NCBI GenBank assembly: GCA_023150835.1
Contig: JAKLKB010000015.1
Span: 6,920-70,919, forward strand
Source: Myxococcota bacterium
GTDB taxonomy: Bacteria > Myxococcota_C > UBA6777
Reading direction: 5' to 3'
DNA: 64,000 nt
Positions 7,295-26,489 of this stretch are shown here, in pieces (position 1 is the stretch's first letter; each line of letters starts with the position of its first letter). Made by a program: the position numbers and the translations under genes. The notes below the pieces were generated by a model. That model was given only the letters and a program-made list of their open reading frames with translations, ran no database searches and had not been told where the DNA came from.

Positions 7295-10200
7295 ATGAAG
7301 CGATTGATCTTCTGGGGCTTTTTGGGGGCTTGTCTGTGCTTCGGCACAGCCGCACACGCCAACAACGCCTCCAACCGTTTTGCGGTCCTCGACTTTGACA
7401 CCTCAGGACGCATCTCTGCGGGTGCAGGCGAAACCCTCGCGATGATCCTCTACAACTCGCTCAACGCAAGACGGTACAACCTGATCGATCCCCAAACCAT
7501 CCGCGAACTTCTGTCTAAACACGAATGGCCTCGAAAACGCCAACTGACGGGCGGTTTGCTCGCAGACTTCAAAAGAATGGGCGTGCGCTTCGTGATCACG
7601 GGCTCTGTCGGCTACCATTACCGCACTTTTACCGCAACCTACCGCATCACCAACACCGACGGGCGCATCCTCTACAGCGACGTGCTTCCCCCTGTCCAAA
7701 GTTGGGTCGGCATGATCTCCACCCTCCAGTACTCGATGAAGATGTTGTTGCGAAACACCCAACGCACCCAACCCACCGCCAAAACGGGCCCCACAACCAA
7801 GCCCGCCCAACCCAACGCCGCTCTCAAAAGCCTCGTCGCCCGCATCAAAAGCGCCGTCAAGAAAAAAACCCCGCTGCAACCCTTCGAAACGCTCACCAAA
7901 GGGGCCACGCGCATCGATGGTCTCTTTCCTCTCTATACCAAGAAAGACGCTTATGGGCAACCTCTGTATATGATGGAGATCGCCCCCGAACAATTAAACA
8001 AACTTTACTTGTTTTCTCCTACCCTCGAAGGCGGGACAGGCGATATACTTTTGACTTTCGCGATGCTCGATGAGTTCCCTTTCCTCTTTGTTCGCCATGC
8101 ACGCGCTCTTTATATGATCGAGAAAAACGTCAAGTTCCGCGTCTCCCCCAAATCGGCGCTCAGCAAGATCATCGATCGCTCTTTTGCAAGCTCCATCCGC
8201 GCCACCAACTTGATCCTCAGCGATGATCATCCCAAAAAGAAATCTTTCCTGATCGATGCCACGAAATTTCTTACACAAGATCTACTTGGCGTAGCACGGT
8301 ATGCGCGATTCTTTGCCTTGCGTACCACGGCGATCGAGAAAATCAACGCCTACCCCAAAAACCTCGAAATGAGCCTGAGCGGCATCTTTGTCTCGCGTGC
8401 AACCACCGCCACCACACCGATCGGACAAGCGATGATCAAGCTCCGCTACAGCCTCTCCACGATGCCCGAACCCGGTTTCCGTCCTCGCTATGCAGATGAT
8501 CGCGTGGGTCATTTTATGATGGTCGCCAAAGACTTTAGCCGCGATGATGTAGACACCCGCTACATCCGTTATGTGACACGTTGGCGTCTTGAAAAGAAAA
8601 ACCCTCGTGCGCGTCTTTCCGAACCCAAAACCCCGATCACGTTTTGGCTCGAAAACGGAATTCCTCACCGTTACCGCGACTCTGTCGCCAAGGGCATCTT
8701 GGTGTGGAATCAAGCCTTTGAACGCATCGGCTTCCAAAATGCCGTCGTTGCGCGCCAACAGCCCGACAACGCCACGTGGGATCCTGCGGATATCCGCTAC
8801 AATAGCGTCCGCTGGTTTCTCGCCAATACTGCTGGGTTTGCGCAAGGCCCCTCACGGATCGATCCGCTCACAGGCGAGATCTACGACGCGGATATCCGCG
8901 TCTCTTCCGAGATGACGCTTTTCCTCAACCAACAATTCTCTCTCCAAATCGAACCGCTCAGCGCTCTCCAAGGCAGCGGTCTTGAGTTTATGCTTGCGGA
9001 AAACGAATTCAGCGGCCTCAAGCCTTTCCACACGCTGCTGCAAGACTACAAGCAACAAATGGCTGATCTGAAAAAGAAAGCAGCACAACCCACCTTTCAC
9101 AATCGCCGTCAACAGTTCCATTGCACCCACATGAGCGAAGCCCGCATCCAAGCGGCCTTTGGATGGGGCCTCTTGACTCTGCGCAAAGAACTTGTCCCGG
9201 GCACGAGCCAAGCCAAAAAATACATCGACGACTTTATCGTCAGCGTGATCTCCCACGAGGTCGGTCACACGCTTGGTTTGCGCCACAACTTCAAAGCCAG
9301 CACCCTCCACACCCTCGAACAACTCCACGACACAGCGCGCACCAAACGCATGGGCCTGACGAACTCCGTGATGGAATACACCCCCGTTAACCTCGCTGCA
9401 CCCGGCCAAAAACAAGGTGAGTACTGGCAAACCACCCTCGGTCCTTACGATCATTGGGCCATCGAATACGCCTACCGTCCGCTTCCTGCGCGCACCCCCG
9501 AAGAAGAACTGCCCTACCTCAACCACATCGCTTCTCGCGTCGCCAAGCACGAACTCGCCTATGCGACGGACGAAGATGCTTTTGGCTTTACCTCGGTCGA
9601 TCCCACCGCAGAACGCTGGGATCTAGGCAAAGATCCTCTGCGTTACGCCCAACACCGCGCCAAGATCGCCTCGGAGATGTGGCAGCGCATCGAATCCTAT
9701 GTCCCCCGCTCCAAAGGCGGCAGCTACCAACGGATGCGCTATATGTTCAACATCGCGGCCTCAACGCATCTTCGCGCAGGCATCCAAGCAGCGCGCTTTG
9801 TCGGCGGCCTGTACCACCAACGCGATCACATCGGCGATGCCGGAAACCGCCTCCCTTTTCGGCCAGTATCCGCAAAAAAACAACGGGCAGCGTTGAATTT
9901 TCTTGCAAAACAATATTTTGGACCAAAAGCCTACAACTTTTCTCCCAGCCTGCTCAACAAACTGGCTCCCGAGCGTTTGTACGGCTTTACTTTCGCCATC
10001 CTCGCCCGTCCTATCGACTACCCGTTGCATCGCACAATCCTTGCTCTTCAACTTCTCCCGATATATCGGCTTCTTTACGTCTCAACCCTTGCTCGCGTTG
10101 AAGATATCCAACTCCGCCAGCCCTCCGATGCCGACTACCTCTCGGTTTCCGAGATCTTCCAAACCATCTCAAACGCAGTATGGGCTGAACTCCTTCCCCC

Positions 10201-10492
10201 CATCGCTCCCACCTCTCGGCCCACCCAAAAAGTTCTCCATCCAGTCCTGATCCCAAGCACCCGCCGCGCACTACAAAACAGCTTGATCGAACTTCTTTTC
10301 GCTTACAGCCAAGCCAACGGACTTGTGATCGCGGAAGCTCCCGTCGCCGCAAGAACAGAACTGGTCAAGCTCTCCGAGCGCCTTCAAGACGCCATCCCGC
10401 GCACAACACACGCCTCCACGCGCCTCCACCTGATCAACGCCCACGCACGCGTTCAACAGATCCTCAACACCGTTCAAATCCGTCTGCGCTGA
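7295..10492 (+). CDS. Secreted zinc-dependent metalloprotease (metzincin-like) with N-terminal CsgG/TolB-like domain
   Basis: The protein has 1065 residues. The ATG at 7295 follows AAGGAG and begins a signal peptide, MKRLIFWGFLGACLCFGTAAHA. Residues ~25-150 (FAVLDFDTSG, ITGSV, YRITNTDGRIL) resemble the nucleotide-free alpha/beta domain of CsgG/TolB-type lipoproteins that assemble or sense in the outer envelope. The rest resembles large zinc metalloproteases of the DUF5117/DUF5118 type. The metal site is HEVGHTLGLRHNF near residue 654 (HExxHxxGxxH, with a Met-turn candidate SVMEYTP about 40 residues later). It probably acts in the periplasm or outside the cell. The fusion of the two domains is unusual as far as I know. 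It stands alone between prfB and a minisatellite. Confidence 0.85.
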   Translation: MKRLIFWGFLGACLCFGTAAHANNASNRFAVLDFDTSGRISAGAGETLAMILYNSLNARRYNLIDPQTIRELLSKHEWPRKRQLTGGLLADFKRMGVRFVITGSVGYHYRTFTATYRITNTDGRILYSDVLPPVQSWVGMISTLQYSMKMLLRNTQRTQPTAKTGPTTKPAQPNAALKSLVARIKSAVKKKTPLQPFETLTKGATRIDGLFPLYTKKDAYGQPLYMMEIAPEQLNKLYLFSPTLEGGTGDILLTFAMLDEFPFLFVRHARALYMIEKNVKFRVSPKSALSKIIDRSFASSIRATNLILSDDHPKKKSFLIDATKFLTQDLLGVARYARFFALRTTAIEKINAYPKNLEMSLSGIFVSRATTATTPIGQAMIKLRYSLSTMPEPGFRPRYADDRVGHFMMVAKDFSRDDVDTRYIRYVTRWRLEKKNPRARLSEPKTPITFWLENGIPHRYRDSVAKGILVWNQAFERIGFQNAVVARQQPDNATWDPADIRYNSVRWFLANTAGFAQGPSRIDPLTGEIYDADIRVSSEMTLFLNQQFSLQIEPLSALQGSGLEFMLAENEFSGLKPFHTLLQDYKQQMADLKKKAAQPTFHNRRQQFHCTHMSEARIQAAFGWGLLTLRKELVPGTSQAKKYIDDFIVSVISHEVGHTLGLRHNFKASTLHTLEQLHDTARTKRMGLTNSVMEYTPVNLAAPGQKQGEYWQTTLGPYDHWAIEYAYRPLPARTPEEELPYLNHIASRVAKHELAYATDEDAFGFTSVDPTAERWDLGKDPLRYAQHRAKIASEMWQRIESYVPRSKGGSYQRMRYMFNIAASTHLRAGIQAARFVGGLYHQRDHIGDAGNRLPFRPVSAKKQRAALNFLAKQYFGPKAYNFSPSLLNKLAPERLYGFTFAILARPIDYPLHRTILALQLLPIYRLLYVSTLARVEDIQLRQPSDADYLSVSEIFQTISNAVWAELLPPIAPTSRPTQKVLHPVLIPSTRRALQNSLIELLFAYSQANGLVIAEAPVAARTELVKLSERLQDAIPRTTHASTRLHLINAHARVQQILNTVQIRLR

Positions 10493-10508
10493 TCTCTGCC
10501 CGCATCGA

Positions 10509-10788
10509 CCTCTTCCCCCTGTTCGATATCTCCCGACTGTCGGCCTCTTCCCCCTGTTCGATCTCTCCCGACTGTCGGCCTCTTCCCCCTGTTCGATCTC
10601 TCCCGACTGTCGGCCTCTTCCCCCTGTTCGACATCTCCCGACTGTCGGCCTCTTCCCCCTGTTCGATATCTCCCGACTGTCGGCCTCTTCCCCCTGTTCG
10701 ATATCTCCCGACTGTCGGCCTCTTCCCCCTGTTCGATATCTCCCGACTGTCGGCCTCTTCCCCCTGTTCGACATCTCCCGACTGTCGG
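10509..10788. repeat. 35-bp minisatellite, eight perfect-length units
   Basis: Eight head-to-tail 35-bp units occupy exactly 280 bp. Each contains CCTCTTCCCCCTGTTCGA and the palindrome CCGAC-T-GTCGG. Variation is confined to one triplet position set (gatatc in units 1, 5, 6, 7; gatctc in 2, 3; gacatc in 4, 8). There are no spacers, so it is not a CRISPR array. Because 35 is not a multiple of 3, the ORFs across it on the minus strand read all three frames and are unlikely to be genes. Confidence 0.97.
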
Positions 10789-10885
10789 CCTTTTTCAAAT
10801 GTGTCCGCTGTGCTTCGCTCCCCGCTCCGTTCGCGGTAGTTGGTTTGTTTCAACAGTTTCCGATTTGGCCCGATGATCGGTCTGT

Positions 10886-13420: not shown

Positions 13421-14857
13421 TTAACGAGAGGGAGAGAACACAAAGGGAAGAACGATGTTCACGGCTTCGCCTTCGGGTTTGGGGAAAGACCAGCGTTGTG
13501 CAGTGCGTTTGACGCAGCTTGCGACGTTGGAGTTGAGGCTATTTTCTTCGATCTCGACGGCGGTGACGCGACCGGTGAGGGCAATGGTGATACGGATGCT
13601 GATCTTGCCTTTAAGATCGGGGTTGTTTTTGAGTTCGCGTTCGTAGCAAGTGCGTATGCCGGATTGATAGAAGCCGATCTTTTTTCGGAGCGCACCTTGA
13701 TCGAGGGTACCGCCTTCGGGTTCAAAGTTTTCGATCTTGAGGTTGGCTTTGATGCTGGCGCCACGACGGCCCGTCCCACCGCCCTTTACGCCATCGCCGC
13801 CGGAGGGTCCGCGCAGATCGCTTGCAACGTCCAAGCTACCGCGCTTTCCGCCACCGCCCCGCGATCCGCGCTGAACTCCAGAGCCATCGTCTACAGCGAC
13901 GCCTGACGTGCGTTTGAGTGCTTCGTCGAGGTTGCGTTGCATCTCACCGCCACCCGCAAGGACGTCCTTGATCGGGCTGCCTTCGCCGCCTTTGGCACCG
14001 AGCAAACCAAGCACGCTCACACGTGCCAATTTTTCCGCGATCTGTTGGCGACGTGCGGCTGCACGGGCGGCTTTTTCTGAGTCGCTCAGTTGCTTCACAG
14101 GCCCAGTACGCTTAGAAGGGGCCTCGCGTTTGGCCGGCTTTTTCGGGCCTTTTTTCGTTTCGCCCTTCTTCTTGGGATCTTTGCCGTCTTCGGTGGGTTT
14201 TGCTTTAACAGGAACAGGTGGCGGCTGGATGGGGGCGATATACTTTGCAAAGCGATCGGAGATCTGGTTGAGGCTGATCTCTTGATCGATCGGATAAGTG
14301 CGCAAGTATGCGATAAATCCGAGGTGAGCAAGACCAGAGATCACAAGGATCGAAGAGTATACCCAGTCGATGCCCTTGATCCAACCGCCTTGGATCAAGG
14401 CGGGGATCTGGGGCTTTGCAGGAAGCGGTGGTGGGGTCACAAACTGAAACAGCAGCGTTGTGTCGCCAAAAGTCAATTTCCCGCGAGATTTTTCGCTGAG
14501 AGCGACTTGGTACACGGGTACTTTTTTCTTTTGGCTAGGCTGACCGGGCTTTTCATAATCGACTTGGCCGACTTGTTTGGCGACACCTTCTTGTTTGAGG
14601 GCTTGAAGATCCGCCACACCTGTTCCCAAAGAAAGGCGTCCTGTCATCCATTCTGCGAGGGTAAGGTAGTAGGTATCTTCTCGGAGTTCAAACAGCGGAA
14701 AGCGAGAGGGAAGCCCTGTGGCGGGGATCACAAAGGTATTCCGATTGGAATCGCCCACCGTGACGGGTTCTCGTTTCCGCAACAGGCGTTCTTCGATGAT
14801 CTTCCCGCCTTGGATGATCCCGATACGCAGGATCTTTCTGGTCTGATTCTGTGTCAT
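13421..14857 (-). CDS. TonB-like AgmX/PglI C-terminal domain protein with FHA-like N-terminus (GltG-like)
   Basis: The protein has 478 residues from the ATG at 14857, behind GAGG. Residues ~1-170 contain an FHA-like beta-sandwich (PVTVGDSNRNTFVIP, LPSRFPLFEL) and GKLTFGDTTLLFQFVTPPP. One membrane segment follows (VYSSILVISGLAHLGFIAYL). The periplasmic part has a Lys/Pro-rich linker, a basic helix and Gly-rich stretches. It ends in an AgmX/PglI C-terminal domain with GIRTCYEREL, GRVTAVEI, SCVKRTAQRWSFP. In Myxococcus, GltG and GltJ of this type link the TolQR-like motor to the periplasmic Glt proteins. It is the last gene of the tolQ-tolR-tolR block, with a short overlap or gap to the preceding tolR. 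Confidence 0.88.
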   Translation of the reverse strand: MTQNQTRKILRIGIIQGGKIIEERLLRKREPVTVGDSNRNTFVIPATGLPSRFPLFELREDTYYLTLAEWMTGRLSLGTGVADLQALKQEGVAKQVGQVDYEKPGQPSQKKKVPVYQVALSEKSRGKLTFGDTTLLFQFVTPPPLPAKPQIPALIQGGWIKGIDWVYSSILVISGLAHLGFIAYLRTYPIDQEISLNQISDRFAKYIAPIQPPPVPVKAKPTEDGKDPKKKGETKKGPKKPAKREAPSKRTGPVKQLSDSEKAARAAARRQQIAEKLARVSVLGLLGAKGGEGSPIKDVLAGGGEMQRNLDEALKRTSGVAVDDGSGVQRGSRGGGGKRGSLDVASDLRGPSGGDGVKGGGTGRRGASIKANLKIENFEPEGGTLDQGALRKKIGFYQSGIRTCYERELKNNPDLKGKISIRITIALTGRVTAVEIEENSLNSNVASCVKRTAQRWSFPKPEGEAVNIVLPFVFSPSR

Positions 14858-14931
14858 GATAGAGATCCTCTTCCGCCGAAGGCGAATTGGCGACACAACG
14901 CACGAGAGATCGGGACAACACCTCGTCGTCC

Positions 14932-15486
14932 TCAACCACCCTTTTTCACAACAGCAAACTTAAACTTCGAAAACTCCGCTTGGCCCGCCGTGTACATCAC
15001 TTCGGAAAGCAAGCGGAAACTCATATCTTGATCGGCGACGATCGTCACTTCCCCCTTGAAGGCAGCGCTGGGGTTGTATTTGGCGATCTTCTTCTGTTTT
15101 TGGACGTCTTCTTTGAGCTCTTTGAACAGAGGCGTGATCAAATAAGACGACGCTTGTTTATCTTTCTTCAGACTGGGGTCGACCGTATTTTTCACCACGT
15201 CGCACACTTTTTTCCGATTGACCATGATGATCCTTTTCGTCACGGCGATGGTGGTGGTGTGCTTCACCTCGAGTTTGGTACTTGACTGAGGCAGGGTATG
15301 TTCTTTGGATTGCGGGACGTCGACAGGTGAGGTGGAGTAGTTCATCAAAAGGTAGATCAGCACGTTGACGAAGATGTCCATCAACGACGTCATGTTTAGC
15401 TCGGCTTTTTTGGCCAAAGCGGCGTCACGCTCGGCTTTCTTCTGGGCTTTTTGATGTTTTCGTTTTTCTTCTACCGCCGAACTCAT
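14932..15486 (-). CDS. ExbD/TolR-type motor subunit with intact transmembrane aspartate
   Basis: The protein has 184 residues. After a charged N-terminal helix of about 30 residues comes NMTSLMDIFVNVLIYLL, with Asp37 at the position of the proton-path aspartate of ExbD and TolR. The periplasmic part ends with EVMYTAGQAEFSKFKFAVV, the usual ExbD fold terminus. It should pair with the TolQ protein encoded two genes upstream. It resembles AglQ/AglS of the Myxococcus gliding motor in position and domain type. The ATG at 15486 follows AAAGGAGAACG. Confidence 0.92.
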   Translation of the reverse strand: MSSAVEEKRKHQKAQKKAERDAALAKKAELNMTSLMDIFVNVLIYLLMNYSTSPVDVPQSKEHTLPQSSTKLEVKHTTTIAVTKRIIMVNRKKVCDVVKNTVDPSLKKDKQASSYLITPLFKELKEDVQKQKKIAKYNPSAAFKGEVTIVADQDMSFRLLSEVMYTAGQAEFSKFKFAVVKKGG

Positions 15487-15675
15487 CGTTCGTTCTCCTT
15501 TGTATCATCGTTGTGCTGCGACCTTTGTCACCGATACCACACAAAAGTTTCAAGCTTTTTTTGGGGTTCACATCTTGTGTGGTTTGGGTGTTTCGCGTGG
15601 CTCTGCGAAGCCAAAGACAAACAAGACTTGATCATCTGCGTAGGGTTAGATTCGATCGAGGCCGAGAAGGATGGT

Positions 15676-16203
15676 TTAGAGCACGCCTGCGCTCAAAACC
15701 ACTTCGGGAAACATTTCTTTGTCTGCCGTTTTGCCTTCGCGGCTATGGTCCATCACATCAATGATGTTCGAATAACGGATCTCGGGTTCCGCCATGATGA
15801 TGATGCGCTTTTCATCGGGAAAGACTTCTTTGATGGTTTGGAGGCATTGCTTCAAAACAGGCAAGTTGTGTTTGTCGCCGATCTTTTTCACGGTGGGGAG
15901 TTTGGCCTCGGTAGCTTCGCCTTTGAGGTCGCAGCCTTCGGGGATTTTTTTCCCTCGGGTCAAGATCGTCAAGCCTTTTTCTGTGATGCTGACCGTCAAA
16001 TTCAGCGGTGGCTTTTCGTCTTTTTTCTTGGGTTCACTGCTGGAGGCTCCCCCGCCGATCTTGGGGGCTGCGACGTTGATCACGCCGATCTTGATGAACT
16101 CGGTGCTCATGATCAAAAAGGGGATCAAGAGCATGATGATGTTCATCAAGGGCATGATATTGATTTCTTCGGTGGCGTCTTCTTGGCGTATTTTCTTTCC
16201 CAT
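15676..16203 (-). CDS. ExbD/TolR-type motor subunit lacking the transmembrane aspartate
   Basis: The protein has 175 residues from the ATG at 16203, behind GGAGA. The membrane segment reads NIMPLMNIIMLLIPFLIM. In ExbD and TolR the residue after PL-x is an essential Asp (consensus TPLxD); here it is Asn21. The periplasmic domain is otherwise complete (ILTRGKKIPEGCD, KRIIIMAEPEIRYSNIIDVMD). The protein probably forms a heterodimer with the aspartate-bearing paralogue encoded just downstream, leaving one protonatable side chain per TolR dimer. The base is clear in the sequence (AAC codon), though a sequencing check is worthwhile. Confidence 0.9.
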   Translation of the reverse strand: MGKKIRQEDATEEINIMPLMNIIMLLIPFLIMSTEFIKIGVINVAAPKIGGGASSSEPKKKDEKPPLNLTVSITEKGLTILTRGKKIPEGCDLKGEATEAKLPTVKKIGDKHNLPVLKQCLQTIKEVFPDEKRIIIMAEPEIRYSNIIDVMDHSREGKTADKEMFPEVVLSAGVL

Positions 16204-16309
16204 ACGGGATCTCCTTATGACGAGCAGGATCTTTGTGAAGCAAAGATACAAACGACACAAAGCAGGCGCGGAGGGGCCTGCTTTGTGATGCAACTAGGCA
16301 CGGAAAGGC

Positions 16310-16960
16310 TTAGCGATCAAGCGGGTTGGACTGGCCTTTGGCGCGGTTGAAGAGCAAGTTTTGGAGTTTGGTGGTGTATTCGTCGATCTCGTCGATGATC
16401 TTTTTGGTGATCGCGCCGAGCATTGCGTGTGCAACGAGACAAGGGATTGCAGCCACAAGACCAAACGCTGTCGTGTTCAACGCGATGGAGATGTATTGCG
16501 CGAGCAGTTTGGATTTTTGGTCCGCAGAGGCTTTGTCAAGGGCCTTGAACGCTTCGATCAGACCGAAGATCGTACCAAGGAGGCCCAACATGGTTGCGAC
16601 GTTGGCGGTGGCTTGGAGCAGGTTGGTGCGTTTTTGAAGTTTCGGGATGACTTCGAGCGAGGCTTCTTCGATGGCGTTGGAGATCTCGACTTCGCCTTTG
16701 TTTGCGCGAGTCAGGCCCGCTTTCACCACTTTGGGAAGAGCAGCGGAAGGAGCGGCGTTACAAAGTTTGATCGCACGATCGATGTTGTTGGCAAGGACCA
16801 GTTTTTGGATTTGGGCCATGAAAGCAGCGCCGTTGATGTTGTATTTGAAGAACAAAAAGATGAAGCGCTCGATCGTCAGACCGATACCAAAGATCAGGGC
16901 GATCGCGATGGGGTGCATAAAGATGCCGCCTTCAACATAGAACTGTTTTAATTCGGACAT
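16310..16960 (-). CDS. MotA/TolQ/ExbB proton-channel family protein (AglR-like)
   Basis: The protein has 216 residues. The ATG at 16960 has a strong AGGAGGAG site; the frame extends upstream to 17140 without a supported start. There are three membrane segments: IFMHPIAIALIFGIGLTIERFIFLF near the N-terminus, then LLQATANVATMLGLLGTIFGLIEAF, and IALNTTAFGLVAAIPCLVAHAML. The GLLGTxxG and LxTTAFGLxxAIP words are the family signatures. It forms the pentameric stator around the two TolR-like subunits encoded just downstream and uses the proton-motive force. Gene order tolQ-tolR-tolR-agmX matches gliding or transport motors in Myxococcota. Confidence 0.93.
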   Translation of the reverse strand: MSELKQFYVEGGIFMHPIAIALIFGIGLTIERFIFLFFKYNINGAAFMAQIQKLVLANNIDRAIKLCNAAPSAALPKVVKAGLTRANKGEVEISNAIEEASLEVIPKLQKRTNLLQATANVATMLGLLGTIFGLIEAFKALDKASADQKSKLLAQYISIALNTTAFGLVAAIPCLVAHAMLGAITKKIIDEIDEYTTKLQNLLFNRAKGQSNPLDR

Positions 16961-17149
16961 AGATCCACTCCTCCTGAGTATTGTGAGTGCTTGGTTAGTG
17001 GTTTCAAGACGCCACTTGGGTTGTTCTTTCAGAGTCGCCCGCAAAACCGAGTGCGACTCGATAAGCAGCATAGGATCAGAGCGGGGGGATGTTTGTGTGG
17101 GTGAAAAAGCCCAAAAACAAACAGATTCCACACCCAACAAGAGGTTGCC

Positions 17150-17416
17150 TTAAAACGGTGTTTTTTTGACCGCGTTGATCACTTTCTTCACGAAGCTTTC
17201 GTTGCGTTTGAAGCCCTCGTAGTTGAGAGGGGCGCGGTTGAGTACGTAAAACGCTTGGGGCTTTTGGATACGCCCAACGATCTTGACGTCGGAGATGCGG
17301 ATCACACGGCCACCTGTGCGCTTTTGAGCGCAGACCGTCGTACTTGCGGGCAGCAGCATAAAGGATAGCGTTGTGCTGAGCAAGAGCGTTTGTGCGAAAC
17401 GTCGAAAAAATTGCAT
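17150..17416 (-). CDS. Small exported protein of the Glt/Agl-like cluster (GltF-position)
   Basis: The protein has 88 residues from the ATG at 17416. Residues 1-30 form a signal peptide (RFAQTLLLSTTLSFMLLPASTTVCA). The mature part is about 58 basic residues with the words GRVIRISDVKIVGRIQKPQAF and LNYEGF. It lies 190 bp upstream of the TolQ gene. Small conserved proteins of similar appearance sit before TolQ genes in myxobacterial clusters, to my memory, but I cannot verify this here. Function unknown. The frame stays open upstream to 18043 but that part is low-complexity and not gene-like. Confidence 0.75.
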   Translation of the reverse strand: MQFFRRFAQTLLLSTTLSFMLLPASTTVCAQKRTGGRVIRISDVKIVGRIQKPQAFYVLNRAPLNYEGFKRNESFVKKVINAVKKTPF

Positions 17417-18069
17417 CACGCAGCCTCTTTTCGCGGATATATCCGCGTTTGATGCGAACGATCCAAGATCGCCATTTGCTTTCGATGCAAAGCGCGGTGT
17501 TGTTGTTCGTAGGGATGCTGGCTTGTTCGCATGGTTTGCATGGTTTGTGTGTTGGGGTGGAAGGGGCCGCCCGAAAGGAGGAAAAAGCAACGCAGTGGAC
17601 CTTTTCTTCGAGCAGAGAGCCAATCCACGGAAAGAAGGCAGGAGAGGAGATGTATTGGAAGCATTCCACACAAGCGGGTTGTTTGGTTGTGTGGTAGCGA
17701 AAACAATCGCTCGGCTACCGATATCACTTTGTCGTGTCATCCAATCCATCGTCCCCATTTGCGGGGTTACGGCCCTATCGGAGGGCAGCTTGAGGCGAAG
17801 AATCTTTTCTGTACCAACGCACAAAAAAGACTTGTTTCTCCCCTTGTATCGGGGAGTTTCCGTTTTTTTGGGCACACGTCGGCGATGATGCGATATCTGG
17901 GGTTGAAAGTCAAGGAACACTTTTCGCTTTTGCACGCCTCGCCCCGCCCCACCGCCAAAGGCAAACAGTCGAGGCGAGCCAAAACGACGGAGCCTAGGCG
18001 CGGAATCCACACGGTTCAGAGAAGTTGGCCCATCGAAAAGCATCGTAGGTGGCTCGTATTCGCTTGATG
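17417..18069. other. 650-bp gap inside the Glt/Agl-like cluster, no gene recognised
   Basis: This stretch lies between the AglT/GltE-like TPR lipoprotein and the small exported protein, all on the minus strand. It contains no convincing coding frame. A hairpin CTCCCC..GGGGAG at about 17837-17855 is flanked by T-runs on both strands and may be a bidirectional terminator. If so, the TPR genes and the motor genes are separate transcripts, with the motor promoter in the left half of this gap. Confidence 0.55.
17836..17870. terminator. Possible bidirectional terminator hairpin
   Basis: The inverted repeat CTCCCC-TTGTAT-CGGGGAG is followed on the plus strand by TTTCCGTTTTTTT and on the minus strand by a T-run about 10 bases further on. 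It is about 200 nt past the stop codon of the TPR lipoprotein gene. Moderate support only. Confidence 0.45.
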
Positions 18070-19440
18070 TTATCGACGTTTTGGAGGTTGTTTTGTTTTG
18101 CGGAGGCGGGCGCGTTGGATGCTTTTGATCGTGGAGTCGAGGCGTTTGCGGAGGCTGGCGATCTGTTTGTTGGCATCGGCAAGATAGCGATGAGCGGGAG
18201 CATCCGATGCGACACCACTTTTTTGGTTGATGTAGGCTTGGAGATGGTAGGCTGCGGTAGAAAAGCGGGAGATGCCGTCCATGATGGCGACGATGCGTTT
18301 TTCGCTTTGAACATCGGGAGGGGCTTCGCGCAGAAAGCGGTCGGTCGGCATCGCACGTTGGATGCGAAGATCGCGATCGAGATGCAAGATCCCCATATTG
18401 TAGTGCGCATCAACATAAGAGGGATTGTCTTGCAAGAGCTTTTGAAAGACTTCGAGAGACTCTTTGTATTGTTGCGATGCGTTCAAGACGATGCCGTAGT
18501 TCAAGCGGGCCTCCCACATTCGCGGCGCAAGGTCCACCGCAGCACGAAAGTGAGGGACGGCTTCGCGCAACTTGCCCCGTTCAAGCAACAAAACACCAAG
18601 AAAGTTATGTGCTTCGGGAAACTCGTGGCGCAGTTTGACCGCTTTTTCAAGAAAAGTGATCGCGGAGCTTACATCGTTGAGCTTTTTGTATGCAAAGCCC
18701 AGATAATACAAGGGTTCTGCAAAGGTTTTGTCGGCATCTGCCGCCAACGTAAACGCCGTTCGTGCCAGTTCGAATTTTTCTTGCTTGTACCAGATCAAGC
18801 CGAGGTTCAGGATGGCTTGGGCATTTTTTTCATCTTTTTGGCGAAGGGTGCGCGCCATCTGTTCTGCGCGGCTGAGTTGGCCTTGTTGGATGTAGAGATA
18901 GACGAGCGCGTTTTGGAAGGCCAGCTCTTGTGGAAACGAGCGGGACTTGTCCGCGATCAGCTCCATCGCTTCGCTGGTTCGGCCTTGTCGCAGATGCACG
19001 CGCATCAAGTTCATCGCAGCCGGCACGAAGTCTGGCTTGATCCGCAGCGCGTTGGTGTAGGCTGTTCGGCTACCCATCGGGTTGTTCAAGCGATCCTGCA
19101 AGACACCGATGTTGTACCAAGCTTTGTGATTTTTCGGATCGTTTTGTAAGACTTGTTCGAGTTCTTTGAGCGCTTGCAACGGATCTTGTTTGGCAGCATC
19201 CAACGCGGCTTTGAAGCGCTCTTTGGAGCCTTCTTGTGGATCTGCGGCTTTGACAGGTTCAGGTTCGGGTGAAGCTTCGGGGATCTCTTCGGTCGTTCCG
19301 CCATCTGCGCTTGCAACAGCACCACCTTCTGCGTTGAGTGTTTCATCTTGCTTGACCACCGTTTGGTTTGGGCAGCCGACCAAGACGACCGTCCCCAACC
19401 ACGCGCTCAACCAAACTACCCACCATCCAACATGACGCAT
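18070..19440 (-). CDS. TPR lipoprotein, AglT/GltE-like
   Basis: The protein has 456 residues. The ATG at 19440 begins a signal with lipobox VVLVGCPN, so it is a lipoprotein. An acidic, Glu/Ala/Pro-rich spacer to about residue 65 precedes about eight TPR units (KNHKAWYNIGVLQDRL, KNAQAILNLGLIWYKQ, AEPLYYLGFAYKKL, EAHNFLGVLLLERGKL and others). The C-terminus is Lys/Arg-rich. In Myxococcus AglT/GltE, a TPR lipoprotein of similar length is encoded beside the GltD gene and the motor genes. The neighbour upstream here is a 1214-residue TPR protein, which matches that order. Likely scaffold of the periplasmic complex. Confidence 0.85.
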   Translation of the reverse strand: MRHVGWWVVWLSAWLGTVVLVGCPNQTVVKQDETLNAEGGAVASADGGTTEEIPEASPEPEPVKAADPQEGSKERFKAALDAAKQDPLQALKELEQVLQNDPKNHKAWYNIGVLQDRLNNPMGSRTAYTNALRIKPDFVPAAMNLMRVHLRQGRTSEAMELIADKSRSFPQELAFQNALVYLYIQQGQLSRAEQMARTLRQKDEKNAQAILNLGLIWYKQEKFELARTAFTLAADADKTFAEPLYYLGFAYKKLNDVSSAITFLEKAVKLRHEFPEAHNFLGVLLLERGKLREAVPHFRAAVDLAPRMWEARLNYGIVLNASQQYKESLEVFQKLLQDNPSYVDAHYNMGILHLDRDLRIQRAMPTDRFLREAPPDVQSEKRIVAIMDGISRFSTAAYHLQAYINQKSGVASDAPAHRYLADANKQIASLRKRLDSTIKSIQRARLRKTKQPPKRR

Positions 19441-19544
19441 CTTCTATCCTCTCAGCGCTTGTGCGCATCGAAACGTCCACCACACGGGGAGTTTCGCATC
19501 CAAGCTGATCTTCGTTTGGCTTTCCAACAGCTCCCATCGTGTCC

Positions 19545-22500
19545 TCAACGCTTGGGAGGCTCTTTGGAGGCAGGTGTTTTTTCAGGTTCCAAACTCATCA
19601 AAGGCAGCGGAGACAACGGATCGAATGTTGTTTGAGGCTCCAACTTTTTCGGTAGAGGGAAGTTTGGATCGGCCCGATGGATCGCTTCGTAGGCTTGGTT
19701 GGTACACTCGTTTTCAAAAAACAACTCTTTGGATTTGTCTACGACCTTGCGATACAGCGCTTGGGCTTGATCTTCGAGAGGCCGCACAAGCTGTTGATCG
19801 AGCTTTTCTTTGTAGATCTCTTTGGCTTCTTCGGTCCAACGCAAACCGCGGATCTTTGGCAACGGTGCTTTGGAGACGCCTGTTGCGATCTTTTGCTTGC
19901 CTTCGGCGATTCGATAGAGCGCACACAACAGCCAAGGAGCCGAAGAATACAGCGCAACGCGATTAAAATCCTTGACGACTTCGTTGTAGCGCTTGCTTTT
20001 GTCGGAGATCTGGCGTTTTTGCACCTGTGGGTTGGTGCTGTCGATGCGCAACTTATCGAATTTTTCGTATTCAAACATCGCTAAAGCGTACGCGGCTTTA
20101 GCGGGGTAGTGGCTTGTTAAAGAAAGATCCACTTGTTTCATCCGACCTTTTAGGCCATCAAAGACGCGGATCATCTTTTCGTGTTCTCGCTTCATCCGAG
20201 ACCAAGGTAGCGACTTTTTCTCGATCTCTTCGTAGATGGTTCCATGACATTGCATCACGCGGCGCACGTAGTCGCTGTTGCTTTGGTATCGACGGATAAA
20301 CGACTCACACAAACGCACCACGTCATCTGTTCGCTTCATGCGCTGGTAGACTTTGACCGCGTTGTACAACACGTCAGGGGCATCTTTGCGGGCACTAAAC
20401 TCGCGTGCGTACCGTTGGTAAGCGCGTGCGGCTTCATCGTAACGCTGCATACTTTCCAACAGCACAGCCGCGTTAAACAAAGCATCCGCACGCTTGTGCG
20501 AATCGCGGTAGGCTCGGTTGTCCACCAGCTCAAGGTAGCGACCGATCGCCTTGTCAAAGTTGAAATATTTTTCTGCGTTGTAGGCTACAAAAAACAACGC
20601 TTGATCGGAGCCTGCTTTGGGGTTGCCTTCATTGTCGAGCAAGAGGTTGCCTTGTTTGTCACGCAAGCGCCAAGTCGGATAACGCTGGACCACCAACTCG
20701 TACACCTTCAAAGCAGACCCAAACATCTTCGCTTTTTCGTACATCAGCGCGGCGTTCCAAAGACCCGCAGGGGCGTCTTTGTCTTTCGGATTTTGCTCGA
20801 CGGCCTTCATAAAAGCTTGGGCAGCCTCCACCCATTGTCCTTTTTCTTTCAACTGGTTCGCTTTGATGAAGATAACGCCGACCTTGAGTTCTTTTTCGTA
20901 AGGGAAGGCGAGGCCAAACTTTTTTAGCTCGTCGATGGCCGCCACCATCTCATCCAAACAACCCTGTCTACGGTGGCTTGCAACGATCGTATCCCCTGCC
21001 GACTTTGCCAGCGGATGTTGTGGGTAGGTTTGAAGGAAATTCATCAAGCGTTGGCGTGTTTCGGCAAGGTGATCGTACGAAAAATAGATCCGCGCTGCGG
21101 AGTAGCTTTGCTCTGCGTTACGCGGATCTTTGGGGTTTTTGTTCAACGCCAAAAAAGCATCGCGTGCTTCGAGCAATTGGAGTTGCATCGGATGGATCGG
21201 TAGTTTTGGAAGCTGAACGCAGCGCATATTGCGAATGGACTGTTCAGGTTTCTTTTTCTTCGGATCTTCTTCGGCTTTTTTTCCGATGTCTTCAGGCAAT
21301 TCACAAGCCTTTTGGATCGTTCCCTCGCGACAAGCCGCATTGGTGATCTGCACCAAGCTATCGACCAATCCAAAGGCGGCTTCTACGGTAAACTTGCCAC
21401 CGCCCGGCCATTCCCGCACCTTACGAAACTCGACAGCAGCCTCTTTGAAGCGCAACGCATAAAACAAACTGTCTGCGAGATACCACATCAGCGTGTACAC
21501 TTCTTTATGATGCGGAAAGCGCCGTAAAAACTCGCGGTAGTTGTCAGCAGCCACGACACAATCTTGGCGCGATTGTTCGAGCAGCGTCTTTTGTTCGGCA
21601 GGATCAGTGCTTTTTTGTGCTCGACCCCGCTTCACGTTGCAGCTTTCATGGCGGAAGATCGCGGCTTGGTAGATACTATCGCTGATGATCTTTTGGACAG
21701 AGCGCTGAGCCGTCACGTCGCTTCGGTTTTTGATCTCCCAAGGAGTATTGACACCAAAGCGCTCGATCAATTTGTTTCGTTCGAGCATCGCGGTGGAAAA
21801 GTCCGACTTACGCATATAAGCTTGAACGATCCGCTCTTGAACCAAGGGGTTAGAGGGATGATAAGGAAACAGATCCAATATCTTGCGATTCATCGCGATC
21901 GCCATATCCCAGTTGTTTTGAGTGGCGTAGTTCTCTGCGATCTGGAGCATGATCTCGCGTGCGTAGGGCTTGTCCAAACCAACCTCGCGGACGTATTTCT
22001 CGGCTTTTTCGGGGCTTCCCCAGTCTTCGTCGGCGAAAGAGATCGCGATGTATTGGATCGCTTCTTTTCGCAGATCTCCTCCTCCCGCTTCGTCTTTTTT
22101 CTTGAGATAAAATTCCAAAAGTTCGGTAAAACGCTTGACCGAGTCTTCAAACTCGTTCATCAGATAATGCGTCCACGCGAGTTTGTATAACGCTTTGTCA
22201 AACATGGGATGCGTCGTATATTGCAGCACTTTGGCATAGGCTTCTTTGGCTTTTCGACGGTTTTCTGCAACGTTTGCGCCGTCTGTTTTTCTGAAGTGGT
22301 ATTCTCCGATCCGCACCCATGCTTCGGCAATAAAGCGGCTATCGGGGTACTGTTCGGTGATCTTGCGAAAGTACGGGATGGCTTCTTCGGCCTTGCCTTC
22401 TTCTTCGATGCAATAACCGAGAAGATAGTAGGCCCCTGCGACCAAGCGATAAGACGGGAAACGTTGAACCAATTCGTTAAGCCAGCGCGTTGTTTCTGAA

Positions 22501-23189
22501 AAGCGTTTTTTCGCAGGCAAAGGTTCGTAAGGGATCTCTTTGTTTTCAAACTTTTGAAGATCTTCTTCGTACTTTTTTGCGCGAGCGAGGTATTCGTTAA
22601 ACTCTTCTTCGTAGTACAACTCAGCAAGGCGATACATGGCGTCTGGCGTGTAGCTCGGGTGATCTGGATAGCGGCGGACAAAGGCGATGAAATACTGGAT
22701 GGCCTTTCGACGTGTCAATTCTTCGTCTTTGTCGAGCTTATCGAGGCGTTTCTTAAAACCATCGACCACCAGTTTTCGACGTTCGCGGTACTGTTTACGC
22801 ACCAATTCGCGTGCCTCTCCAAGATAGTCCCGCGCAGCTTGACGAAAATCGTCATAGGCTTCTTTGATCTGCTTCATCTCTTGATCGCGTTCTTTGCCGC
22901 GCAGGATGATCACTCCATCAGAAGAAGTCGTGGGAGTCGGCGTTGCCGATGTATTGGGAGCCGTTGCGGCATCGGCTGTTGTGCCAGTCGTTCCGTCTGT
23001 TTTTTTCGCGGAAGCGGAAGAGGGGGCATTTCCGTCAGTCGTTTTTGTAGGAACGGGGGGGTTGCTCCCGGGGGTACTTGCTTTTTCAGCAGGTTTGATC
23101 TGTGTGCGATCTTTTTGTGCGTGTGTGGGAGAGATTGCAAAAGCCACAACAAACAGCACACAGAGGGCAGATATCCGTAGTTGACACAT
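19545..23189 (-). CDS. Large periplasmic TPR protein, AgmU/GltD-like
   Basis: The protein has 1214 residues, very close to the 1218 I recall for Myxococcus AgmU/GltD. The ATG at 23189 starts a signal peptide ending SPTHAQ. A Ser/Thr/Ala-rich spacer reaches about residue 90. TPR-type helical repeats then extend to the end (for example YFIAFVRRYPDHPSYTPDA, YYLLGYCIEEEGKAEEA and YDEAARAYQRYAREF). The C-terminus is Pro/Lys-rich. It is probably the long periplasmic scaffold of the machine. It is encoded 104 bp upstream of the AglT/GltE-like lipoprotein. The family match rests on length, repeats and context, not on an alignment. Confidence 0.82.
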   Translation of the reverse strand: MCQLRISALCVLFVVAFAISPTHAQKDRTQIKPAEKASTPGSNPPVPTKTTDGNAPSSASAKKTDGTTGTTADAATAPNTSATPTPTTSSDGVIILRGKERDQEMKQIKEAYDDFRQAARDYLGEARELVRKQYRERRKLVVDGFKKRLDKLDKDEELTRRKAIQYFIAFVRRYPDHPSYTPDAMYRLAELYYEEEFNEYLARAKKYEEDLQKFENKEIPYEPLPAKKRFSETTRWLNELVQRFPSYRLVAGAYYLLGYCIEEEGKAEEAIPYFRKITEQYPDSRFIAEAWVRIGEYHFRKTDGANVAENRRKAKEAYAKVLQYTTHPMFDKALYKLAWTHYLMNEFEDSVKRFTELLEFYLKKKDEAGGGDLRKEAIQYIAISFADEDWGSPEKAEKYVREVGLDKPYAREIMLQIAENYATQNNWDMAIAMNRKILDLFPYHPSNPLVQERIVQAYMRKSDFSTAMLERNKLIERFGVNTPWEIKNRSDVTAQRSVQKIISDSIYQAAIFRHESCNVKRGRAQKSTDPAEQKTLLEQSRQDCVVAADNYREFLRRFPHHKEVYTLMWYLADSLFYALRFKEAAVEFRKVREWPGGGKFTVEAAFGLVDSLVQITNAACREGTIQKACELPEDIGKKAEEDPKKKKPEQSIRNMRCVQLPKLPIHPMQLQLLEARDAFLALNKNPKDPRNAEQSYSAARIYFSYDHLAETRQRLMNFLQTYPQHPLAKSAGDTIVASHRRQGCLDEMVAAIDELKKFGLAFPYEKELKVGVIFIKANQLKEKGQWVEAAQAFMKAVEQNPKDKDAPAGLWNAALMYEKAKMFGSALKVYELVVQRYPTWRLRDKQGNLLLDNEGNPKAGSDQALFFVAYNAEKYFNFDKAIGRYLELVDNRAYRDSHKRADALFNAAVLLESMQRYDEAARAYQRYAREFSARKDAPDVLYNAVKVYQRMKRTDDVVRLCESFIRRYQSNSDYVRRVMQCHGTIYEEIEKKSLPWSRMKREHEKMIRVFDGLKGRMKQVDLSLTSHYPAKAAYALAMFEYEKFDKLRIDSTNPQVQKRQISDKSKRYNEVVKDFNRVALYSSAPWLLCALYRIAEGKQKIATGVSKAPLPKIRGLRWTEEAKEIYKEKLDQQLVRPLEDQAQALYRKVVDKSKELFFENECTNQAYEAIHRADPNFPLPKKLEPQTTFDPLSPLPLMSLEPEKTPASKEPPKR

Positions 23190-23246
23190 GGTCTAGCCTC
23201 ATCGCCTTGGTTCTCGAAATCCCAAGGCCAAGTGTACTCAAAAAAA

Positions 23247-25640
23247 CTATTTTACCTCATCAAGAAGATCGCGAAACTCCGCATCAAGCATACGCAGCTC
23301 GCTGTTTCGCTCTCGTGTGATCTTTTGGCTTTTGGTTTGGATGGTTTGTTTTTCTTTCCACACCACATCGATCACACCGACATCTGCGCGCAAGATAAGT
23401 TGGTAAAAGCGTTTTTTGACGCTTTCAAAACCTTCGTAGATCACGGCACGCGAAAGCTGCGAGGCTTCATTTTGCAAGGAAAGCAAGAGTCCTTCATAGC
23501 GCGTGAGTTTTTGCTTTTCGTTCAAAAGACGGGCACGAACATCTCGGGTATAGCGCAAGATCGAAGAATTGAGTTGGCGGGTGAAGTCTGTGAGTTCGCC
23601 TTGTATCCGAATCAATTGCTCGTTCGTGCTTTGAAGCTCGCTTACGATCTGGCTGGCCTCGCCATCCAAACGCGACTGGACGTTGGCGAGCAACGCCTTT
23701 TGTTGTGCGAGAAGTTGGCGATATTGATTTTGTAGGCTCAATTCTTTGGGATCGGTCGCGTAACCGAGTTCGATACGAACAAGATCCAATTCGCGCTGAA
23801 GTTTTTGTTTTGCATCCCGCAAAGTCTTGATCTCGTTATCGATCCATGCCAATTCGGTTTGGACATCAGATTGCGCTTGGGGAGCTAAGAGCTGTGCTTC
23901 TTTGCTGCGTTGAAGCCACTTTTGCGAAGCGCGCTGTTCCCGTTCGATCTGGTTGAGGGCGATGGTCACTTTGTGAAGACGCACCGCCATGCGCTCAGAA
24001 CGCTCTTGGAAGGATTTGGCTCGGAGATCCAAGGAAGCCTCGTTTTGAGGGGCGTTTTGCAGTTGTTTCTGATGTTTTTTAAGGTCTTCTACGATCCGTT
24101 CATAGCGGGTGCGCTCATCAGAAGTCATCTTGTCCAACACGAGGCTTTGTTCGAGTGCGTTGGATTCGGCTTGCGCAGCGATCAATTGGTTTTGTGCGGC
24201 GATCGATTGCAAGCGTGCTTGCCGTAGTTCAGGCGAGATCAGGATTCGTTCTTGTACGCGCAGTGCTTGTTCGAGGCGTTGCACGATCTGCAACGAGTCC
24301 GACATAAAGGCTTGCATTTGTACGAGATCTCGCTGAACAGAAAGCACACGTTGGATCTGCTCGTCTTCTGTGAGGCTTTGGACGGCTTCACGCGGCAAAA
24401 GAGAGTTTGAAACCAAAGCACTGCGCGATCGTTTTTTCTCGGAGACAGCGCGAAGAAGCTCCTTTTCTACATCCAAACGATTTTTTTTGATCTGATCAAG
24501 CTCCCGATACACCGAAGAATACTGCTTTACGATCTTGTTGTAGCCGTCCATCGCGGGCGAAAATCGGTCCAGTTCCAGCAAGAGTTGTCCACGCAAAAGC
24601 TGCGCTTGCGAATAGAAGGTGCTGTTGGGCAAAAAGTCAAGCAATAGATTGAGGCTTTTGAGCGCTCGATCATACTCCTTTTGCTGCTTTTTTAGGTCTT
24701 TGTAACCCCGCCCGCGGCGGATATAAGTCCAGCAAATCTCATATAACGCTTCATCAAAAACCGCAGAACTTCGCCCAACTTGTTGATAATAATCCAACGC
24801 CGAAGCATAGTCATTTTTCTCTAAATAGAGGCGCCCCAACGCGATCAAGATGGTGTTGTAGAGGTCTCGTGTACGTTTTGCGCTGCTTTGTTCGACGGGT
24901 TTGCGGGCTGCCCCCAAACCAGCAACCAAAAAGCGGATGGCGTTTTCTACGTTTTGTGGATGAGGGGCTGTTTTGAGTTGGATAACAGCAAGAAAGTATT
25001 GACCTTGAGGCCAGTATTGCGAGCCTTGTGCGATGCGTTGAAAACTTTGCGAAGCGTCGGAAAAGCGATCTTGGGCGTAAAAAGTTTTGCCTTGGAGATA
25101 GACGATCTGGGCGCGTTTTTCTTCGGACATGGAATCCAACGAGATCGCGGGCATTTTTGCGTTGACCCAGTCGTACTTGCGAGTCAAGTTCGCGATCTCA
25201 AGCAGACGGATCAGGGCGTCTGGAAAGCGCCGATTTCGCGAATTGACGATGCGTTCATAGTACTTTGCCGCAGAGATGTAGTTTCCGTTTTTAAAGAGCG
25301 ACTCGGCAAGAAAAAAATTGGCATCGAGCCACCCTGTTTTTCCTCGATTTTCCGTTGACTCCACCGCATCCAACAAGATCACACTGGCGCTGGTGTAATC
25401 CCCCAACAAAAAGTTGACCTGCCCGTCAGAGAGGCGCTTTTGCAAAGAGACACGACCTTCGGTCCGTTGGCCTCGGTAGCTTTGCCGCAACAAGCGCACA
25501 CTTGATTCCAAGCGCCTTGCCTGATTTTTGATCGACTCCAAACGCTCGCGTGCGGAAGCCGCGAAGGCTTTTTGCACTCCAAGAAGACCCACAACACAGC
25601 AAAGCAGCACTATCCGCTGCCACAGAGATCCTTGCTTCAT
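23247..25640 (-). CDS. Periplasmic TPR/coiled-coil protein of the Glt/Agl-like cluster
   Basis: The protein has 797 residues. ATG 25640 is preferred over 25646 because AAGGAG is 8 nt away. The signal peptide is WQRIVLLCCVVGLLGVQKAFA. Residues ~40-380 are TPR-like (YTSASVILLDAVEST, NYISAAKYYERIVN, YASALDYYQQVGRS). The rest is long heptad-rich coiled coil (for example QNQLIAAQAESNALEQSL and LQRELDLVRIELGY). This layout of TPR then coiled coil could span the periplasm. It lies 57 bp upstream of the GltD-like gene. I do not recognise a specific orthologue; GltC is one candidate. Confidence 0.75.
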   Translation of the reverse strand: MKQGSLWQRIVLLCCVVGLLGVQKAFAASARERLESIKNQARRLESSVRLLRQSYRGQRTEGRVSLQKRLSDGQVNFLLGDYTSASVILLDAVESTENRGKTGWLDANFFLAESLFKNGNYISAAKYYERIVNSRNRRFPDALIRLLEIANLTRKYDWVNAKMPAISLDSMSEEKRAQIVYLQGKTFYAQDRFSDASQSFQRIAQGSQYWPQGQYFLAVIQLKTAPHPQNVENAIRFLVAGLGAARKPVEQSSAKRTRDLYNTILIALGRLYLEKNDYASALDYYQQVGRSSAVFDEALYEICWTYIRRGRGYKDLKKQQKEYDRALKSLNLLLDFLPNSTFYSQAQLLRGQLLLELDRFSPAMDGYNKIVKQYSSVYRELDQIKKNRLDVEKELLRAVSEKKRSRSALVSNSLLPREAVQSLTEDEQIQRVLSVQRDLVQMQAFMSDSLQIVQRLEQALRVQERILISPELRQARLQSIAAQNQLIAAQAESNALEQSLVLDKMTSDERTRYERIVEDLKKHQKQLQNAPQNEASLDLRAKSFQERSERMAVRLHKVTIALNQIEREQRASQKWLQRSKEAQLLAPQAQSDVQTELAWIDNEIKTLRDAKQKLQRELDLVRIELGYATDPKELSLQNQYRQLLAQQKALLANVQSRLDGEASQIVSELQSTNEQLIRIQGELTDFTRQLNSSILRYTRDVRARLLNEKQKLTRYEGLLLSLQNEASQLSRAVIYEGFESVKKRFYQLILRADVGVIDVVWKEKQTIQTKSQKITRERNSELRMLDAEFRDLLDEVK

Positions 25641-25694
25641 CCACATCGCTCCTTGCCTTGCTCGGCAGCCCTTATCACACCCCAACGTCTCGGA

Positions 25695-26489
25695 TTATTT
25701 CGTTTCCGCTTTGGGGGCGTCTTTGCGTTTGGCTGTGATATCGCGGATCTTGACATCATATTGAACAGTCGGTCGATCGGTCAATTGCGTTACCAGCGGG
25801 TTCTTTTCAAAAGCAACCACCGATATCTCCATTGATTTTCCTTCGAGAGCTTTGAACGTGTATGAAGAGCGTACGCGAAATCGGTATTGTTTTAGGTACG
25901 AAAAAACACCCAATCCGTTGCCTCGAAACACCAATTCGACGGAAAGAGTATAACGTTCGGGCTGGAGCGTGTTGGTAAAGGCCACGAACTTTCGGGCGCT
26001 TGCTTTGTTGAGGGAGCCTTCGTAGTCCGTTTTGGTAAAGACAGGGTTTCCGCTCAGAGTGTAAGAGATCGAGCGCAAGTAAAAGGACGAACCCATTCGA
26101 TTGTCGTGGACCAACACCACCTTCGATGTGGAGATCGCCCCTTGCAGCAAGGATTCTTGCAGCAACATCAGCTTGGCTTTGCTGCGGAAGATCTGCTCCT
26201 TGAGAGAGCCTGTTTTTTCTTCGATGGTCAGTAGTTGAAAGCGGTGGCGGTCGGATTGGACGCTGCTTCCTTCGGAGGGTGCATTTGGAGGAGAGCCTGA
26301 GGTGGGGGAGCCTGAGGTGGGGGGTGTCGGTTTGGGAGCATCCTCTTTTTTGGGATTATCGGACTTTTTGGCATCGCGAGCAGGTGGTGGGTTGGGTTTG
26401 TCTTGGGCCCAAGAGACAGAGACGCCGCTGAAGCAACATACGGTGAAAAACAAGCAGATACGACGGAAAGAGCCGTTGAGAACGGACAT
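25695..26489 (-). CDS. Exported protein with Pro-rich linker and C-terminal beta domain, first gene of the Glt/Agl-like run
   Basis: The protein has 264 residues. The ATG at 26489 has AAGGAGACAAG upstream. The signal peptide ends VSVSWAQ, followed by a Lys/Pro/Ser-rich linker of about 50 residues. The remaining 190 residues alternate helix (EEKTGSLKEQIFRSKAKLML) and beta strands (YTLSVELVFRGNG, RFRVRSSYTFKA, TVQYDVKIRDI). It is encoded upstream of the coiled-coil TPR gene with 54 bp between them. Similar proteins occur next to TPR genes in myxobacteria and are often misnamed dihydrolipoamide acetyltransferase because of the Pro/Ala-rich linker. No enzymatic motif is visible. Confidence 0.75.
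   Translation of the reverse strand: MSVLNGSFRRICLFFTVCCFSGVSVSWAQDKPNPPPARDAKKSDNPKKEDAPKPTPPTSGSPTSGSPPNAPSEGSSVQSDRHRFQLLTIEEKTGSLKEQIFRSKAKLMLLQESLLQGAISTSKVVLVHDNRMGSSFYLRSISYTLSGNPVFTKTDYEGSLNKASARKFVAFTNTLQPERYTLSVELVFRGNGLGVFSYLKQYRFRVRSSYTFKALEGKSMEISVVAFEKNPLVTQLTDRPTVQYDVKIRDITAKRKDAPKAETK

Follow-up and report, generated by a model that had tools for sequence, protein, structure and literature searches.

What a motor related to the gliding machinery of Myxococcus does directly beside a polysaccharide exporter is the question raised by a locus of a Myxococcota bacterium (GenBank assembly GCA_023150835.1, lineage UBA6777). The window analysed here is a stretch of 64,000 nucleotides of contig JAKLKB010000015.1 (positions 6,920 to 70,919, forward strand). 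Nine minus-strand open reading frames at 13421-26489 are present where a sequence-only reading had placed them; it had compared them with the core of the Agl-Glt gliding apparatus and left it undecided whether they serve motility, envelope transport or another function. The best answer is now that they export a polysaccharide or transport a polymer. With a probability of roughly two in three, the locus encodes a trans-envelope machine of the Agl-Glt type that is specialised for polysaccharide export, has a translocon as its outer end and acts on a polymer of the biosurfactant polysaccharide (BPS) type.

The Agl-Glt type was borne out for eight of the nine genes by Pfam, NCBIfam, family profiles and synteny, namely for those related to GltC, GltD, GltE and GltF, for the motor subunits TolQ, TolR1 and TolR2 (AglR, AglQ and AglS) and for GltG, and the first gene, encoding a 264-aa protein, revealed no detectable kinship with NfsA or NfsB. 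Homologs of the Group B core (GltC, D, E and G with AglR, Q and S; PMC3169522) are clustered here, and the Group A member GltF is also there. Profile searches for the Glt/Agl families, proposed by the sequence-only reading, did match GltC, GltE and GltG, all of them under the models' own equivalog cut-offs, so that these proteins are called Glt-like and not M. xanthus-type Glt; the GltE match counts as weak, being outscored by generic TPR families. In transcription order the genes encode the 264-aa protein, GltC-, GltD-, GltE- and GltF-like proteins, TolQ, TolR1, TolR2, a GltG-like protein, a barrel and an outer-membrane polysaccharide export (OPX) protein. Since each flanking gene runs divergently or convergently to them, the unit was taken to span 26489 down to 10886 on the minus strand, with 11 genes (Table 1).

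The barrel and OPX genes had been noted as directly following the cluster; their position was right, and the view of them as mere neighbours was incomplete. An AlphaFold2 (AF2) model of the barrel displayed 18 long strands (predicted local distance difference test, pLDDT, 81; predicted template modelling score, pTM, 0.77) and aligns with AlgE/OprD-family barrels at Z 18-20; 18 is also the strand number given for the EpsX, ExoB and WzpB barrels (PMC9601211). Its only Myxococcus xanthus match is the barrel beside WzaB (4e-21), and the best M. xanthus match of the OPX protein is WzaB itself (39%, 7e-32, the two remaining OPX proteins scoring 7e-19 and 3e-12). The OPX protein is short, carrying Poly_export and SLBB domains and no Wza_C, and it is paired with the 18-strand barrel; a short OPX protein adjoining such a barrel is described as a composite OPX/beta-barrel translocon (PMC9601211, PMC9603273). 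It is the sole PF02563 (Poly_export) match in the host genome, which is 93% complete; both Myxococcus genomes studied have three Poly_export proteins each. Judged by family and gene order, the pair is the predicted conserved outer-membrane end of the machine and belongs to the unit.

Which of the known Agl-Glt systems the cluster resembles was read from trees. M. xanthus AM003 and M. eversor each have four long GltD-type loci, which, like the Myxococcus motors, were named from gene order and size. In the GltD tree, redone after six rows had been removed as unsuitable (three GltC-type proteins, fragments and one very long branch), the window protein groups with M. xanthus G4 (MXAN_1922) on a branch supported at 100/99, apart from G1 (gltD), G3 (nfsD) and G5. 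The host genome carries two further Glt-type clusters with C-D-E-F-G, L059 (G000:C115) and L060 (G000:C176); the GltD of C115 groups with G1 (97/90) and that of C176 with G3 (94/85, long branch). Two filings of the window cluster were rejected: as a gliding (Glt) machine, its GltD not being nearest G1, a place taken by C115, and its motor not grouping with AglR; and as an Nfs sporulation machine, its GltD not being nearest NfsD and no NfsA/B match being found in the cluster. The Agl-Glt core of the sequence-only reading stood, its identification with the gliding apparatus did not, and on phylogeny the cluster is most probably neither a gliding nor a sporulation machine.

The linkage of this core to the exporter is conserved. 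Scanning the GltD alignment against 84,980 species genomes led to 80 named loci, and the synteny check called for earlier revealed that the gene order is kept across the host family and in other phyla. Within the host family (KLAP109, NP119, M3003, S139) eleven genes stand in identical order, the S139 contig starting inside the second gene, and protein identity to NP119, M3003 and S139 is about 36-88% along the cluster. Rumen UBP6/'Spirochaetales' metagenome-assembled genomes and Hydrogenedens display the order with R-Q-S in the cluster; Myxococcus, Archangium, Citreicoccus and Pyxidicoccus have 264aa-C-D-E-F-G-(X)-barrel-OPX without R-Q-S, X being the product of a Myxococcus gene between G and the barrel. 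A barrel and an OPX gene lie downstream of GltD in 35 of the 47 G4-type loci that have at least 7.5 kb of sequence downstream of GltD, and in none of the 11 inspected loci of Glt, Nfs or G5 type. As the order is kept in relatives and other phyla, the grouping goes beyond chance. Six rumen/UBP6 loci (L119, L127, L132, L134, L139, L147) have, directly upstream of the G4-type cluster, a second D-E-F-G set whose GltD falls outside the G4-type clade. A contig titled Comamonas sp. KCTC 72670 (L133) bears a Myxococcus-like G4 cluster and is probably a mislabelled or contaminated record.

The motor, too, is related to an M. xanthus system other than the gliding one. In the TolQ tree the window protein, the other in-cluster motors and M2 (MXAN_3003-3005) fall into a single clade (95/96), to which AglR is sister; the Agl clade of 26 rows (99/96) includes the window motor and excludes the remaining TolQ/ExbB-type proteins encoded in these genomes, which places the motor with Agl rather than Tol/Exb. 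M. xanthus AM003 and M. eversor have two Agl-type motors each; the motor at L215, with R of 245 and Q of 162 aa as in AglR/AglQ, was therefore taken as M1 and the other as M2. A second Agl-type TolQ of the host genome is found at G000:C21 (L005). Alignment showed the transmembrane Asp of the window TolR1 to be replaced by Asn (PLMNIIMLL) and that of TolR2 to be kept (SLMDIFVNV), a pattern found also across the host family, the UBP6-type loci and Hydrogenedens. At L100 and L140 the loss is swapped to TolR2, TolR1 keeping its Asp, and Myxococcus M1 and M2 have the Asp in both TolR subunits. One protonatable Asp per TolR1-TolR2 pair seems to be enough, if the pair is a heterodimer.

In Myxococcus the same parts can be followed to named genes. 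M. eversor has one run of mglA, the 264aa-type gene, C, D, E, F, G, a gene for a cyclic nucleotide monophosphate (cNMP)-binding protein, X, barrel and OPX; in M. xanthus AM003 this run is divided between two contigs, L210 bearing mglB, mglA and the first half, L237 the barrel and OPX genes. The identities are mglA MXAN_1925, mglB MXAN_1926, gltD (G4) MXAN_1922, WzpB MXAN_1916 and WzaB MXAN_1915, and counting down from mglA, ten genes fit 1924-1915 exactly, with D at 1922, the barrel at 1916 and OPX at 1915; we infer this numbering from AM003 and M. eversor, not from DK1622. In 18 of the Myxococcota loci checked, mglA stands directly before the first gene (including L210:7516-8594, there with mglB); it was not found in the neighbourhoods checked at the window locus, the UBP6 loci or the Hydrogenedens loci. 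The window has in common with M. xanthus G4 the order 264aa-type, C, D, E, F, G, barrel, OPX, and differs in that Myxococcus has mglBA upstream, the cNMP-binding protein and X between G and the barrel, and no in-cluster motor, while the window has its motor in place and X elsewhere. WzaB has been described as an 'orphan' located outside any polysaccharide cluster (PMC7484181, PMC7310880), and wzaB (MXAN_1915) mutants have a BPS- phenotype (PMC7310880). In Sandaracinus, by contrast with this orphan position, WzaB is reported to be encoded next to BPS genes. The functions of G4 and M2 were unknown as of 2011-2013 (PMC3169522, PMC3858216), and the literature searched gave no function for M2.

A link to the polymer is provided by a second site of the host genome, C188, which holds its only Wzz-like match (PF02706, weak, 1e-3). 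This 761-aa protein was accepted as a polysaccharide co-polymerase (PCP) because it has an AAA_31 domain and matches an M. xanthus PCP at 1.8e-98. Directly before it lies a gene for a 222-aa exported protein and after it a convergent one for a Wzy_C protein. The 222-aa protein is a homolog of X; in a search with Myxococcus X alone it scored 2.5e-10, and its NP119 counterpart, which likewise adjoins a PCP gene, 1.7e-16. As a conserved exported protein, X ties the BPS-type PCP to the cluster. The best M. xanthus matches of PCP and Wzy (2.3e-29), assigned by best match and not by a tree, lie 33 kb apart at C221:113.8 kb and C221:147 kb, with one Wzx and several glycosyltransferase-like genes in between. 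That stretch fits the BPS (Wzx/Wzy) locus MXAN_1025-1052 (PMC7484181), the PCP and Wzy of the host genome then matching MXAN_1025 and MXAN_1052. Ten loci, of rumen type and others, have a gene for a Wzc-like PCP immediately after OPX.

Taken together, we propose a machine in which TolQ-TolR1-TolR2 in the inner membrane would draw energy from proton flow and move GltG, as in Agl-Glt and Agl-Nfs. The periplasmic C, D and E, to which the same two systems suggest this role, would pass the force to the outer membrane together with F and the 264-aa protein. Their partner there would be an OPX/18-strand-barrel translocon of the WzaB/WzpB type in place of the GltA/B/H adhesion complex, and a BPS-type polymer made by Wzx/Wzy would leave the cell through it. 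If the translocon is indeed the outer end, the motor would act on the export of this polymer; we infer that the motor chain contacts the translocon and exerts force on the polymer, and the motor may either pull or gate the polymer or move translocon and polymer along the envelope. A more tentative reading unites the G4 complex, the M2 motor, WzaB/WzpB and, in Myxococcota, MglA in one machine, in which proton-motive force might drive or steer the secretion of a soluble polymer; the motor of the window lineage would then run with only one transmembrane Asp in each TolR1-TolR2 pair.

Several observations weigh against this proposal. The main tension lies in mutant behavior: BPS- mutants show reduced spreading on soft agar (PMC7310880), and a polar G4 mutant might be expected to do the same, yet polar mutation of MXAN_1922 (G4 gltD) left motility on hard or soft agar without appreciable change; deletion of MXAN_3004 (M2) did not appreciably alter motility either. 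The motor of the Myxococcaceae is encoded away from the G4 cluster, its pairing with G4 being based on one tree, and X is absent from the window cluster and sits beside the PCP instead. In 12 of the 47 G4-type loci no barrel and OPX were seen within 7.5-11.5 kb downstream. Gaps of 653 bp between E and F and of 404 bp between G and the barrel may split the operon, and scans for its signals were uninformative, promoter-like sites being at chance level (11 versus 9.0) and terminator-like sites not specific.

An unlikely alternative, though the best of the rivals, is an Nfs-like surface transporter that shifts already exported polymer over the cell surface, the co-encoded OPX/barrel pair working without the motor. 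Agl-Nfs does transport spore-coat glycan, Nfs still needs the Agl motor to move when an exoA mutation abolishes Exo secretion (PMC3858216), and the separate exo and nfs loci show that exporter and transporter can be independent. Unlike exo and nfs, exporter and machine form one conserved unit across phyla here, and X is linked to both the barrel and the PCP. That the locus drives gliding is improbable: the core proteins are shared and mglA, the gliding polarity switch, lies directly upstream in Myxococcota relatives, but GltD and motor belong with G4 and M2, whose disruption left M. xanthus motility unaffected, the NfsA/B test revealed no GltA/B homolog in the cluster, the host genome has the separate G1-like cluster C115, and mglA is missing from the window locus itself. 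A general Tol-Pal-like machine for envelope stability with the exporter as a chance neighbour, suggested by the TolQ/TolR families and the TonB-like tail of GltG, is highly improbable given the separate motor clade, the lack of TolB or Pal matches among the cluster proteins in Pfam and the 35/47 versus 0/11 linkage.

Among the known systems, M2 has its TolQ clade in common with the window but is unlinked from G4 in M. xanthus and keeps Asp in both TolR subunits; MXAN_3004 was dispensable for sporulation (PMC3858216). The Agl-Nfs/Exo spore-coat machine (PMC3858216) likewise sets an Agl-type motor and a C-D-E-F-G chain on a secreted polysaccharide, but with the outer-membrane proteins NfsA/B/H and a separate exo locus, where the window has a translocon. 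The gliding machine (PMC3169522) offers homologs of C, D, E, F and G and of R, Q and S; the window is phylogenetically apart from it, GltA/B were not found by the NfsA/B test, and H, I, J and K were not seen. As in composite translocons (PMC9601211, PMC9603273), a short OPX protein without a membrane-spanning domain adjoins an 18-strand barrel, but next to the window pair there are no biosynthesis genes, and a motor operon is coupled to it; PMC9601211 had left aside those OPX genes that lie outside synthesis clusters. Machines of this kind are known. New, it appears, are the coupling of one to a polysaccharide translocon, the phylogenetic range of this arrangement and the connection of G4, M2 and WzaB: full-text literature searches, covering neither figures nor supplements, where an earlier remark may stand, found no paper linking G4 or M2 to WzaB, WzpB or BPS.

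Among the chain proteins, the 264-aa protein consists in its AF2 model (pLDDT 75, pTM 0.53) of an Ala/Pro-rich linker, a long helix and an 8-strand beta sandwich; it is 27-47% identical across 24 loci and had no Pfam or NCBIfam match. Its weak Foldseek matches to transthyretin-like or adhesin-like sandwiches, of low template modelling score, were not used. Two assignments, of the first gene to GltB and of the barrel to GltA, were considered and dropped, as profile comparison (hhalign) gave no match to NfsA/NfsB; these M. xanthus paralogs stood in for GltA/GltB, and real GltA/B could be encoded elsewhere in the genome. Pfam found TPR arrays among the cluster proteins, and the GltC family profile also matches NfsC in M. 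xanthus and M. eversor. The GltF-like protein is 56-67% identical in NP119, M3003 and S139, its profile matching at the NfsF position in L212/L218. NCBIfam GltG covers residues 17-478 of the GltG-like protein, which has one transmembrane segment and an AgmX/PglI TonB-like tail; its N-terminal region is FHA-like by eye only, with no Pfam FHA match. Four starts were corrected to ATG (GltC-like 25646, TolQ 16960, TolR1 16203, GltG-like 14857).

Table 1. Genes of the unit in order of transcription, with the basis of each assignment.
Feature	Position	Strand	Basis or remark
264-aa exported protein, first gene	25695..26489	-	no match to NfsA/NfsB (hhalign)
GltC-like exported TPR + coiled-coil protein, 799 aa	23247..25646	-	NCBIfam GltC 2e-12
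GltD-like exported TPR protein, 1214 aa, G4 type	19545..23189	-	GltD trees
GltE-like TPR lipoprotein, 456 aa, lipobox LVGC	18070..19440	-	NCBIfam GltE 1.3e-20; position conserved
GltF-like small exported protein, 88 aa	17150..17416	-	conservation in relatives, family profile
TolQ/AglR-type motor subunit, M2 type, 216 aa	16310..16960	-	MotA_ExbB 4e-26; TolQ tree
TolR1/AglQ-type subunit, 175 aa	15676..16203	-	ExbD 1.2e-13
TolR2/AglS-type subunit, 184 aa	14932..15486	-	ExbD 3.4e-13
GltG-like protein, 478 aa	13421..14857	-	NCBIfam GltG 2.6e-38, myxo_SS_tail 2.4e-25
18-stranded outer-membrane beta-barrel, WzpB type, 466 aa	11616..13016	-	AF2 model; M. xanthus match
Short (class 3) OPX lipoprotein, WzaB type, 231 aa	10886..11581	-	Poly_export 3.8e-12 + SLBB

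Just downstream of the OPX gene, eight near-perfect 35-bp tandem repeat units (97% match) lie at 10505-10791, and a plus-strand gene at 7265-10492, convergent to it, encodes a 1067-aa protein with DUF5117/DUF4953 met-zincin domains. Further tandem arrays with units of 33, 21 and 42 bp were found at 38823-39603 within a long minus-strand open reading frame (38348-41005).

The locus joins three parts of M. xanthus that have been studied separately, namely a motor and a gliding-type complex, both uncharacterised, and an 'orphan' polymer exporter. From this join of G4, M2 and WzaB it follows that G4 and M2 mutants are predicted to be BPS-defective, which makes the function testable in a tractable organism. 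The machine would show one core motor fitted with different outer-membrane ends, an adhesion complex, a spore-coat carrier or a polymer translocon, and mglBA, the polarity switch, would be placed beside a secretion machine. If this is true, a gliding-type motor powers the secretion of a soluble polymer.

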